Below, one piece after another: positions 4,918 through 9,203 of a DNA stretch of 20,468 nucleotides (its first letter is position 1; every line of letters starts with the position of its first letter). Location of the stretch: the IMG/VR virus record IMGVR_UViG_3300017598_000114, positions 1 to 20,468 of that record. One strand, written 5' to 3'. The stretch comes from a virus. Under the pieces are notes generated by a model, which had not been told where the DNA came from, searched no databases, and saw only the letters and a program-made list of their open reading frames with translations. The position numbers and the translations under genes were made by a program.

Positions 4918-6774
4918 TTAAAAGTCTAATTCTTTAGGGTCTTTAGTTAACCATTCATATTCTAAATCTTCTTTTGCTTTCTCTACTGAGTTTTCAAAGG
5001 CGGTATTAGGTTTTATCACCTCTAACTGTTCATACTCTGGAGTTAGCCAGTTGCTATAATCTAACGATTTTGCATTGATAACAGAAGAAAAATCTATGTC
5101 CATTGGTTGATATTCTAAGTCTTCGTATCTTCCGTTAACCGTGTTGTAACTATAATAAACATTCTTTTGTTGTTCTCCTAAGTGCTTAAACTTAACTTTC
5201 AACGTCTTAATTTGAACTATCTTTTGTTCATAAATTCGGTTAACTCCTAGAACGTTGTAACTCATATCAAAGTGTTCTCCTCCTCCTTTTATGTTGTATG
5301 CGTTTGGCATCTTAAAAGTACTCTCACTTCCGTCTGCTTGTTCTGTTTTATTTGGATGAGCTACTAAGAATAAGTGAGAATTAGTTTCTTTTACAAAAGC
5401 ATCTATTTGCGTGTGGTACTCATTTGTAAAATCGTTAATACTTGTTATATGGTCTTTCAGTTTAACCTTATTAAACGGATCAATCACAAAGATTCTACAG
5501 CCTTTTCTTCTAGTCAACTCCCTAAACTTAGAAAGCACTTCCTCCAGGTAGTATCTTTTGTCAAAATGCACATGAAAAAAGTTGTCATTTATGTAACTCT
5601 TCACCTCTTCTAGTTCTTTTGTGCCTATGTTTTTTGCTTCTGGTCTTCTTCCGTAAAGCTTTTGAGCTAATTTATCATAGTGAAATATAAAAGGTTCGTT
5701 TTCTATTGATACAAAACCTACTTTATTTTTAGAAGATAAATTGTACTTAACAATTATTTGGTCTAACCATTCGGACTTGCCAGACTGAGGCACACCAGTA
5801 ACTAAAGTATATTGCCCAAGTTCGGCAGAAAATATGTCATCAAAACAAGTCATTCCTGTTAGCATTCCTTTTGGAAGTCCATTAACCCAAAAATTATCTA
5901 AGTCTTTTGAATAGTCGCTTAACTGTTTAACATTCTCTAACGGTGTTATCTGAGCATTACTAATACAGTTTTTAAGCTCTTCTGCACCGTACTTAACTAA
6001 ATACTCATTCGCATCTTTACAGTCTTTAAAATCCACTAGGTAGCATCTTTCAGAACCTAACCGCCTTACAAATTCTGCTCTACCTTTTAGACCTGCTTCA
6101 TCATTATCTAAAGCTAAATAGATTTTTTCTTTATTATCGAAGTATTCTAAGTAGTTATCTAGGTAGTCTAGGTTAACATTACCTTGTAAATTAAATCCAT
6201 TTGGCACGCTTACTACGTTATGAAGTCCTGATTCTATAAAGCTCAGTACATCTATTTCACCTTCAACAATTATACAAGTAACATCTGTCCGTATAGCGTC
6301 AATATTGTAAAATATCTTCTCAGCTCCTTTGAAGAGTTTGAAGTTCTTTCTGCCATCTCTGTACTTTGTGTTTATCAATTCATCATTTAGAAAGTAATTG
6401 AAGTGAATAGTGTTTTCTTCTTTACTTGTTTGTGGCATCCATTCCATACCCTCTGTTATTCTACACCTATTTAAAGTTAACTGTGTAATACCTCTAGAGA
6501 AAAACCATTTAACACACTTATCTGAAAGTGTTGTTCTATTCCACTCTGGTTTAATGTAAACTATCTCGGCATCTTTTTTCTTGTAGGTGTGTAGTTGGAT
6601 CAATTCTCCGCAATGGTTACACATTCCTAAACCCGTATCCCAAAACACAGACAAACATTTATCCGTTTTCTTCTTTCTATGCTCTGAACATTTAGGACAA
6701 GTAGAACTTTTAGCTCTGTCTTTAATCCCGTATTGGTTAAATTGGTCTATTTCAAATCCGTTTAATTCGCTCAT
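4918..6774 (-). CDS. T7 gp4-like bifunctional primase-helicase
   Basis: This 618-aa protein has the domain order of T7 gp4 and Twinkle. An N-terminal zinc finger holds C26-x2-C29 (CPKC) and C52-x2-C55 (CNHC). A TOPRIM primase fold has EGEID at 171-175 and ALDNDEAG at 221-228, giving the conserved Glu and DxD metal ligands. A RecA-like DnaB helicase domain has Walker A TGVPQSGKS at 326-334, Walker B FVIDPF at 429-434 and LVAHPNK at 470-476. It makes RNA primers and unwinds the phage replication fork. It follows the DUF6291-type gene by 3 nt. No DNA polymerase is in the window, so the phage encodes one elsewhere or uses the host's. Confidence 0.95.
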   Translation of the reverse strand: MSELNGFEIDQFNQYGIKDRAKSSTCPKCSEHRKKKTDKCLSVFWDTGLGMCNHCGELIQLHTYKKKDAEIVYIKPEWNRTTLSDKCVKWFFSRGITQLTLNRCRITEGMEWMPQTSKEENTIHFNYFLNDELINTKYRDGRKNFKLFKGAEKIFYNIDAIRTDVTCIIVEGEIDVLSFIESGLHNVVSVPNGFNLQGNVNLDYLDNYLEYFDNKEKIYLALDNDEAGLKGRAEFVRRLGSERCYLVDFKDCKDANEYLVKYGAEELKNCISNAQITPLENVKQLSDYSKDLDNFWVNGLPKGMLTGMTCFDDIFSAELGQYTLVTGVPQSGKSEWLDQIIVKYNLSSKNKVGFVSIENEPFIFHYDKLAQKLYGRRPEAKNIGTKELEEVKSYINDNFFHVHFDKRYYLEEVLSKFRELTRRKGCRIFVIDPFNKVKLKDHITSINDFTNEYHTQIDAFVKETNSHLFLVAHPNKTEQADGSESTFKMPNAYNIKGGGEHFDMSYNVLGVNRIYEQKIVQIKTLKVKFKHLGEQQKNVYYSYNTVNGRYEDLEYQPMDIDFSSVINAKSLDYSNWLTPEYEQLEVIKPNTAFENSVEKAKEDLEYEWLTKDPKELDF

Positions 6775-6777
6775 GTC

Positions 6778-7359
6778 TTAAAAGGTTGATGCGTCATGTG
6801 TTATCTTAGCTCCAACACTTCCTAAGATTTCATCATTCCAACTTAAATTATTTAAAAATGTTTCTGGGTTCTTCCTATACTTTTTGTCGGGTTGCGAATT
6901 TATGTATTTTGGAATATAAACCATAATTTTATCTTGGTCTTCTTTAGATAATTTATCCCACTTCTTTTTGACTTTACTTTTGTCACCTATTTTTTTATCA
7001 TACAAATTCCAAAAATTATCAAACCTCTCTTGTCCTTGTTCTTTTACTTCTACTTGTTCTTTTACTTGTTCTTCCTGTAGGGGGTCTGCCTTGGGTAGCC
7101 CCTTAGGGGGGTCGTACACCCCTGTCAACTCCTCGCCAGTAGCGTCTTTCCAGCCTTTTACTTGTTTTTCGATTGAGTGTACTTGACTAATGTAGGCAAA
7201 TTTAACTAAGCCTTTTAAGTCTGGCTCAATATCTAAAAATTGTTTATCTAAAAGAGCTTTAATAAATGTTAGTTTATCCTTGTCATTTTCAAGCTCATTG
7301 AATATATCAAAGTAAGACCTGTAAAACTTAAAGGTTTTTCGTTTAGTTGGCTTAATCAT
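6778..7359 (-). CDS. DUF6291-type replication protein, possible helicase loader
   Basis: Residues 1-65 (KTFKFYRSYFDIFNELEND onward) match the DUF6291 pattern of phage replisome organisers. The middle, residues 75-110, is a low-complexity linker with repeated E/Q/V/K (QEEQVKEQVEVKEQGQERF). The C-terminal part, FDNFWNLYDKKIGDKSKVKK and RKNPETFLNNLSWNDEI, resembles the DNA- or helicase-binding domain of such proteins. Placement just before the primase-helicase supports a role in loading it onto the origin or fork. The linker contains a GC-rich patch (7080-7125) unlike its surroundings. The function is inferred from family resemblance and position, not from catalytic motifs. Confidence 0.75.
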   Translation of the reverse strand: MIKPTKRKTFKFYRSYFDIFNELENDKDKLTFIKALLDKQFLDIEPDLKGLVKFAYISQVHSIEKQVKGWKDATGEELTGVYDPPKGLPKADPLQEEQVKEQVEVKEQGQERFDNFWNLYDKKIGDKSKVKKKWDKLSKEDQDKIMVYIPKYINSQPDKKYRKNPETFLNNLSWNDEILGSVGAKITHDASTF

Positions 7360-7552: not shown

Positions 7553-7591
7553 AATAATAAAGGTTTTAAGATACCAGTAAACTTTTAAATT

Positions 7592-7643
7592 AAAAAACCC
7601 TTACAAATCCTCGAGGGTCTAACGTCTCAATTCATTGTAAGGG
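7592..7643 (-). terminator. Hairpin plus T-run terminator
   Basis: On the minus strand CCCTTACAA (7643-7635) pairs with TTGTAAGGG (7606-7598), followed at once by six Ts (7597-7592). The loop is long (28 nt) and contains GTTAGACC, complementary to a segment near the RNA's 5' end. It lies 39 nt before the 66-aa gene, so replication genes need read-through or antitermination. Confidence 0.75.
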
Positions 7644-7685
7644 CTTAGTTAAAATTCCTTTGTTGCTTATATGTTAGACCGCAAC
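7592..7685 (-). ncRNA. Candidate structured RNA with kissing loops, about 94 nt
   Basis: A strong Bacteroidetes-type promoter (7691-7722) predicts a start near 7685. The RNA then opens with a hairpin GTTGC (7685-7681) / GCAAC (7666-7662), whose 14-nt loop begins GGTCTAAC (7680-7673). It ends with the terminator hairpin at 7643-7598 plus six Ts. The terminator loop holds GTTAGACC (7623-7616), an exact 8-nt complement of the first loop, so the two loops can kiss or form a pseudoknot. The terminator loop also holds the palindrome CCTCGAGG (7609-7616). No coding frame of note is present. It could be a free small RNA or a leader controlling read-through into the replication genes. I do not recognise a known RNA family. 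Confidence 0.6.
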
Positions 7686-7690
7686 TTGTA

Positions 7691-7722
7691 CAAATATACA
7701 AAATTTATTCTATATGCTCAAA
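7691..7722 (-). promoter_or_regulatory. Bacteroidetes-type promoter for the structured RNA
   Basis: TTTG (7722-7719) is followed after exactly 20 nt by TATATTTG (7698-7691), a full match to the -33/-7 consensus TTTG-N19/20-TAnnTTTG. The -33 box lies inside the last codons of the 4-Cys gene. Confidence 0.7.
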
Positions 7723-8804: not shown

Positions 8805-9203
8805 TTATTCTAATTCTAGTAATTTATCAAACTTATTACTAGCTGTTTTTGCGTATTCGTCAAACCTAATATCCATCTCAATAGTGTTTAAACTATGCAT
8901 AACACTAGAATGATTCCTATTAAATAATTCTCCTATCCCCACTAAGGTGTAACCCATTGACCTAAGTTGTCTAATACAAAGGTTTCTAGCTACTACATTA
9001 CGCCTTAACCTAGATGCACTTCTTACACCTCTAATCGTTGTGTTGCAAACTCTAGCAGAGAAAAACATCATATCCTGTAAAGGTACATCTATATCTTCTG
9101 TGGCTAAGTCTAATTGATTCAGGTAAAGATTTATTTTGTCTGGATTCCATTTAGGTTTACCCATCTCTTTAACTATTTTTCTTTTTGTTTCTGTTTTTGT
9201 CAT
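8805..9203 (-). CDS. Stand-alone DnaA domain-IV-like DNA-binding protein
   Basis: Residues 66-108 (RLRRNVVARNLCIRQLRSMG, then LVGIGELFNRNHSSVMHSLN) match the C-terminal domain of DnaA: an R-x3-x3-AR helix, the IG-x2-F helix-turn-helix and the signature N-R-x-H-S-S-V-x-H-S in place of G-R-D-H-S/T-T-V-x-H-A. The AAA+ ATPase domain of DnaA is absent; residues 1-60 are a short charged lead-in. Such proteins may bind DnaA boxes at the phage origin, compete with host DnaA, or act as early regulators. It overlaps the preceding 86-aa gene (ATGA). Confidence 0.88.
   Translation of the reverse strand: MTKTETKRKIVKEMGKPKWNPDKINLYLNQLDLATEDIDVPLQDMMFFSARVCNTTIRGVRSASRLRRNVVARNLCIRQLRSMGYTLVGIGELFNRNHSSVMHSLNTIEMDIRFDEYAKTASNKFDKLLELE

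Follow-up and report, generated by a model that had tools for sequence, protein, structure and literature searches.

A previously undescribed RNA family is present in abundant and poorly studied aquatic phages, viruses of marine and freshwater flavobacteria. Read from sequence, it is a kissing-loop RNA, in which the loops of two hairpins keep a covarying complementarity, and it is near certain that the family is real. The window is a 20.5-kb virus record with genes of the type found in tailed phages of Bacteroidota, nearly all on the minus strand, and the element lies on this strand between ORF59, an SSB-like gene, and a 66-aa ORF. Its carriers comprise about 70 distinct relatives (IMG/VR contigs) and five isolated phages, namely morran9-1, Olleya phage Harreka_1, Tenacibaculum phage JQ and the Cellulophaga phages phi10:1 and phi19:1, to which the knowledge of hosts is confined. 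On balance, the RNA probably acts as a phage-specific leader and as a cis-acting transcription attenuator of the replication operon.

Anatomy of the RNA and its promoter

The features of the element are collected in Table 1. An earlier note on this DNA had proposed the promoter, H1, the complementary loops and the terminator, all of which lie on the minus strand where it had placed them. Within its outer stem, hairpin T contains an internal loop (TGAA/GGAT), an inner stem (TTGAG/CTCGA) and the apical loop holding GTTAGACC, and it is followed by TTTTTT. The fold of the 100-nt RNA has a z of -3.1, with 2 of 200 shuffles as good, while the loop-loop helix, computed as a free duplex, reaches about -11 kcal/mol. 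Both complementary loops are on the same transcript and have no opposite-strand partner. The exact GGTCTAAC has one further copy in the window, and an isolated 8-nt complement could be due to chance; hence the weight of the evidence comes from the relatives, where chance is clearly not the explanation.

Table 1. Features of the element and of the genes that follow it, in window positions
Feature	Position	Strand	Remarks
Flavobacterial sigma-A promoter, TTTG-N20-TATATTTG	7691-7722	-	-33 TTTG at 7722-7719; -7 box TATATTTG at 7698-7691
Hairpin H1, GTTGC[GGTCTAACATATAA]GCAAC	7662-7685	-	Stem GTTGC/GCAAC, 14-nt loop; predicted 5′ end of the RNA
Kissing strand 1, GGTCTAAC, in the H1 loop	7673-7680	-	Exact complement of 7616-7623
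A/U-rich single-stranded linker, H1 to T	7647-7661	-	11-36 nt in relatives
Hairpin T	7595-7646	-	Outer stem AAGCCCTTACAA/TTGTAAGGGTTT, 7646-7635/7606-7595
Kissing strand 2, GTTAGACC, in the apical loop of T	7616-7623	-	Complement of the H1 loop; covaries in relatives
U-tract of the terminator	7592-7597	-	T enrichment in members
Hairpin H3, GGT-ATCTTAAA-ACC	7561-7576	-	Immediately 5′ of the small-ORF start codon
Small ORF, 66 aa	7352-7552	-	Predicted beta4-alpha fold resembling a PUR repeat
DUF6291/replication-initiation-like gene	6778-7359	-	Downstream of the element
Primase-helicase (TOPRIM)	4918-6774	-	Downstream of the element

The full promoter pattern occurs three times in the window where 1.0 is expected, so that the match is weak taken alone. 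In Flavobacterium psychrophilum, TAnnTTTG occupies positions -12 to -5 (PMC9723704), which places the predicted +1 at 7686 and implies that the RNA begins with H1. The transcription start of the earlier note, given as near 7685, is thereby corrected by one position. In 60 of 72 members, a TAnnTTTG-like box ends 4 to 7 nt 5′ of the H1 core, and the mode of 5 nt suggests that the core begins at about +1 (+1/+2) in members generally. A terminator closing the upstream operon is found just before the promoter at 12 of 69 loci, compared with 4% of shuffles; at least there, the replication genes are thus reachable only through T.

A coding explanation of the segment was rejected, since linker indels and covariation do not fit any reading frame, in line with the original view that no coding frame is present. 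The palindrome CCTCGAGG, which had been listed as a feature, is incidental: it arises from the last loop bases and the inner stem, and is absent in relatives. A pairing between the linker and the H3 region (AAAGG/CCTTT in the window) is not kept in the relatives examined by eye. In morran9-1, a hypothetical CDS annotated as gp042 (MN812219.1; L236 14157-14300) overlies the element and is probably spurious.

Conservation and covariation in relatives

Relatives of the primase share the layout with other loops (GTTCCGACA/TGTCGGAAC, ACATAGGA/TCCTATGT, GTACGAC/GTCGTAC, ACTTCACAA/TTGTGAAGT and others). The exact loop string GTTAGACCCTCGAGG retrieved nothing but unrelated sequences from the collection, which is what variable loops would predict. 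Further members were gathered via a conserved leader string and the small ORF, an anchoring which over-represents the small-ORF context among the loci. A descriptor made of the promoter box, a hairpin loop and its exact complement inside a second hairpin returned 85 distinct forward matches over 1.76 Mb, compared with 15 on the opposite strand and 19 in shuffled sequence, and the layout is consistent in some 72 of the descriptor matches. Because the descriptor itself selects complementarity, counts based only on it are biased, and a locus-anchored count and loop-blind models were therefore made. The strict descriptor anchored on the small gene matched 64 of 80 loci and 6 of 1115 control windows. 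Read by eye, nearly all of 15 formal failures also carry the element: the complement is at least 7 nt in ten and 6 nt in one, the ORF start is misplaced or an ORF inserted in two, and a usable ORF start is missing in two.

For the loop-blind check, covariance models were built without the loop-loop pairs. They found L230 (GGTTTGGC), L073 (CGTCCTAC) and L070, whose new loops match over 8, 8 and 6 nt, respectively. For the 24 members that the models yielded, nearly all absent from the training sets (in which L197, L200 and L223 are represented by kin or copies), the complement of a member's own loop spans at least 7 nt in 21, 6 nt in two and 5 nt in one, which is cut off. Cross pairings among these members mostly reach 4-6 nt, and the loops of different members match over at least 7 nt in 4.6% of cross pairs.

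The RNA has a constant size of about 95 nt across members, and in T the inner stem, which presents the apical loop, is usually set off from the outer stem by an internal loop. Four subtypes differ by the size of the H1 loop and by the side carrying the kissing strand. A GTCTCAC-like strand is located in H1 of subtype A and is exchanged in B/C, where H1 holds GTGAGAC (L204 2837 and L212 2746 vs L168 2756 and L182 2768), as if each loop geometry prefers one strand type.

In subtype A (16 sequences), 27 of the 30 pairs change on both sides, with a covariation score of 0.58 compared with 0.20 when shuffled, and 92.5% of cells are paired, compared with 71% in shuffles and 33-50% with slid partners. 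Every pair of the H1 stem changes on both sides (5/5; 84% of cells paired), as do 9 of 12 in the outer stem of T (98% paired). The earlier note had asked for paired substitutions between 7673-7680 and 7616-7623, and these were found: all eight pairs of the loop-loop helix covary in subtype A (96% of cells paired) and six of eight in subtype B (100% paired). Over the whole structure of subtype B (15 sequences), 22 of 30 pairs change on both sides and 98.3% of cells are paired. The element is thus among the clearer covariation cases for a loop-loop helix joining a 5′ hairpin to a terminator. Changes on both sides affect about 24% of cells in the kissing helix and 18-27% in most other helices, so a faster evolution of the former was not seen in subtypes A and B.

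G-U is retained 41 times in the stems, compared with 6 times for A-C, a ratio somewhat inflated by the descriptor, which allowed G-U; the dominance of G-U indicates that the conserved entity is the transcribed RNA strand. A DNA element, either a replication origin or a cruciform, would suit a locus adjoining replication genes but is extremely unlikely, since G-U is kept 7 times as often as A-C, the distance to the promoter is fixed and an 8-bp loop-loop interaction has no obvious counterpart in duplex DNA.

Downstream of T, counting from the last GG, the frequency of T residues at positions +2 to +6 is 0.87, 0.99, 0.94, 0.75 and 0.69 across 71 members, compared with a baseline of 0.38, and the U-tract is short or interrupted in some (e.g., L187 and L185). 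The first ORF starts a near-constant distance away (median 44 nt downstream of T). No promoter of the TAnnTTTG type is found in any of the 71 gaps that separate T from the first gene. The small ORF is nearly always the next gene in the set anchored on it; other genes follow in L005, L006, L010, L070, L073 and L230, and the replication module is the constant neighbour. Three contigs carry a second element with a different loop code (L160 63/2828, L165 307/2120 and L195 205/2739), heading other early genes, namely an ORF ahead of Erf, a GIY-YIG-like ORF and a helicase-like ORF. In each of the five isolated phages, one copy lies directly upstream of the replication operon, in a scan that covered all but the last 3.7 kb of phi10:1 and the last 7.4 kb of phi19:1; their records have no RNA annotation at this locus. 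Comparison of relatives thus establishes both hairpins (H1 and T) with their covarying stems, the helix between their loops, the promoter and the U-tract, as well as where the element lies and on which strand.

Probable attenuation of the replication operon and competing readings

A leader terminator is favoured because the order is promoter, H1, T, U-tract and gene, the U-tract is selected and no later promoter follows. The layout is that of an attenuator, with a promoter before the terminator, a gene after it, and a GC-richer hairpin with a conserved U-tract. Transcription would start at the first base of H1, and the loop-loop helix would form only once the apical part of T is out: the emerging apical loop would pair with the H1 loop (7-10 bp), presumably within one molecule, and lock the leader in one compact fold. 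T and the U-tract would then end most transcripts, giving a short RNA with hairpins closing both ends. The read-through fraction would carry H3, the small ORF, the replication-initiation gene and the primase-helicase, and leakage or relief of T would set the level of replication proteins. T is expected to terminate in vivo, and this termination may be regulated. The kissing could help T close or hold T open, the sequence being compatible with both; our guess is that it strengthens T.

The loop codes differ and yet the two halves always match, hence the RNA probably sets the amount of replication machinery. A purely structural role in cis suffices, and loop recognition between phages is not required, because the variation of the kissing helix is no higher than that of other helices. 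No alternative antiterminator hairpin was noticed, short of a systematic search, so that a factor acting in trans must be assumed. Against attenuation, a strong terminator placed before essential genes without regulation would be surprising if it were neither leaky nor relieved, and the U-tract of some members is interrupted or short.

Alternatively, the released RNA of about 95 nt could itself be the product, acting elsewhere on a host target, RNA polymerase or the ribosome, with loop pairing serving only to compact or stabilise it and with the replication genes expressed by leak-through or from further upstream. The own promoter, the 5′ end inside a hairpin, the terminator, the high predicted stability and the constant size would suit such a stand-alone RNA, which is nevertheless rather unlikely: the element has a fixed place before replication or other early genes, its distance to the start codon varying little around 44 nt, and the second copies in L160, L165 and L195 likewise head early genes. 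In addition, no conserved unpaired seed sequence stands out in the RNA.

Loop-loop kissing is tied to the control of replication functions in pT181, pIP501 and ColE1 (RNAI/RNAII). In these plasmid systems, an antisense RNA transcribed from the opposite strand serves as the partner, whereas the two loops of the element are on one strand. In the c4 antisense RNA (RF01695), which is also of phage origin, segments are complementary to a partner carried by the same transcript. It is listed in PMC2864571, and it differs from the element in structure and hosts. Among Rfam 15 families (including c4 antisense RF01695, Flavo-1 and Bacteroidales-1), no match was found for the window and eight relatives, and a permissive scan gave only chance miRNA matches (E about 3), in agreement with the earlier note, which knew of no such RNA family. 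Similarly, no published description of the element was found in the open papers searched, and no annotated phage with DNA similarity to the window was found.

Among the nearest systems by function is the leader of P4 (CI RNA, seqA and seqC), a phage transcript ahead of replication genes with complementary segments and premature termination (PMC4825925). The element resembles it in these three respects, and differs in that its loops sit in the 5′ hairpin and in the terminator of a single short unit; no kinship in Rfam or sequence was found. In lysogens, P4 CI undergoes processing and works in trans, whereas the phages described here are mostly not integrated. A trans-acting RNA for immunity or timing, like P4 CI RNA or P1/P7 c4, would use the H1 loop of one RNA to pair with the T loop of a second, nascent leader, thereby ending transcription of the replication genes, with the consequence that phages of the same code exclude each other or that early genes are shut off. 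Private matching loop pairs that differ between phages, and between the two leaders of one phage, would agree with this, as would the replication operon downstream, which recalls P4 as outlined in PMC4825925. However, same-molecule pairing in cis should win, and the kissing helix turns over no faster than other helices, hence there is no sign of diversifying selection; an action in trans is therefore improbable. Lysogen immunity is an unlikely setting, since no chromosomal prophage with the element was found in the sample searched: the small ORF was present in 0 of 295 genomes of the class searched, and the RNA model matched in two, once on a phage-like contig in a Lutibacter MAG and once (L246) on an ordinary long terminator, rejected as a chromosomal homologue. 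Comparably improbable is a loop-coded recognition, in which each phage has a private loop pair and the short RNA ends replication-operon transcription of co-infecting or newly made genomes of the same code; if true, it would provide RNA-only timing and superinfection control in non-integrating phages.

Like the element, IsrK of Gifsy-1 has a promoter, a short RNA ending at a terminator and a read-through mRNA (PMC4825925). IsrK differs in promoting translation of its long form in trans, and no kissing between a 5′ hairpin and a terminator loop is described in the section of that paper devoted to it. In HK022, put is a cis-acting structured RNA at the start of early transcripts (PMC9378689). 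A put-like leader would bind RNA polymerase and make it ignore terminators further along the early operon, for which two hairpins placed right where an early transcript begins are in the right cis-acting position (PMC9378689). This is very unlikely, since put suppresses termination while the element carries a terminator, the conserved U-tract at its end is the reverse of put action, and little conserved sequence is available for contacts.

Some 70 leaders with mostly private loop pairs form a natural set for work on the effect of tertiary RNA pairing on termination. The element also offers a testable handle on replication timing in these phages, isolated phages that carry it being available.

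The small ORF, hairpin H3 and neighbouring genes

The stem of H3 is swapped in relatives (CGG/CCG in 16, CCG/CGG in 12 and AGG/CCT in 15) around a constant loop ATCTTAAA, and H3 is a possible translational operator. In the small ORF (window and L148-L227), the start MAKFELKF and the C-terminal helix LDKSTAIKFAKTLRTEINK are conserved while the middle is highly variable. AlphaFold predicts the beta4-alpha fold with a pLDDT of 89, and the top three structural matches are PUR repeats, from the human, Drosophila and Borrelia Pur-alpha proteins (Z 7.0, 6.8 and 6.5). The Foldseek E value of 0.24 is weak and no Pfam match was found for the ORF; hence a PUR-like nucleic-acid-binding fold, and a product that would be an RNA- or ssDNA-binding autoregulator, are given as leads only.

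Upstream of the Erf and SSB genes, the window encodes a protein with the C-terminal HTH (domain IV) of DnaA without its ATPase part (8805-9203, minus strand), and DnaA-like proteins are annotated in Harreka_1, phi10:1 and phi19:1 too. A hexapeptide-repeat transferase gene and a family-2 glycosyltransferase gene, which overlap by 4 bases, lie at the end of the array of phage genes (297-1327, minus strand). Near the structural genes, a phage protein (12827-14470, minus strand) contains a GDSL-lipase-like domain with a Pfam score just below the cut-off.
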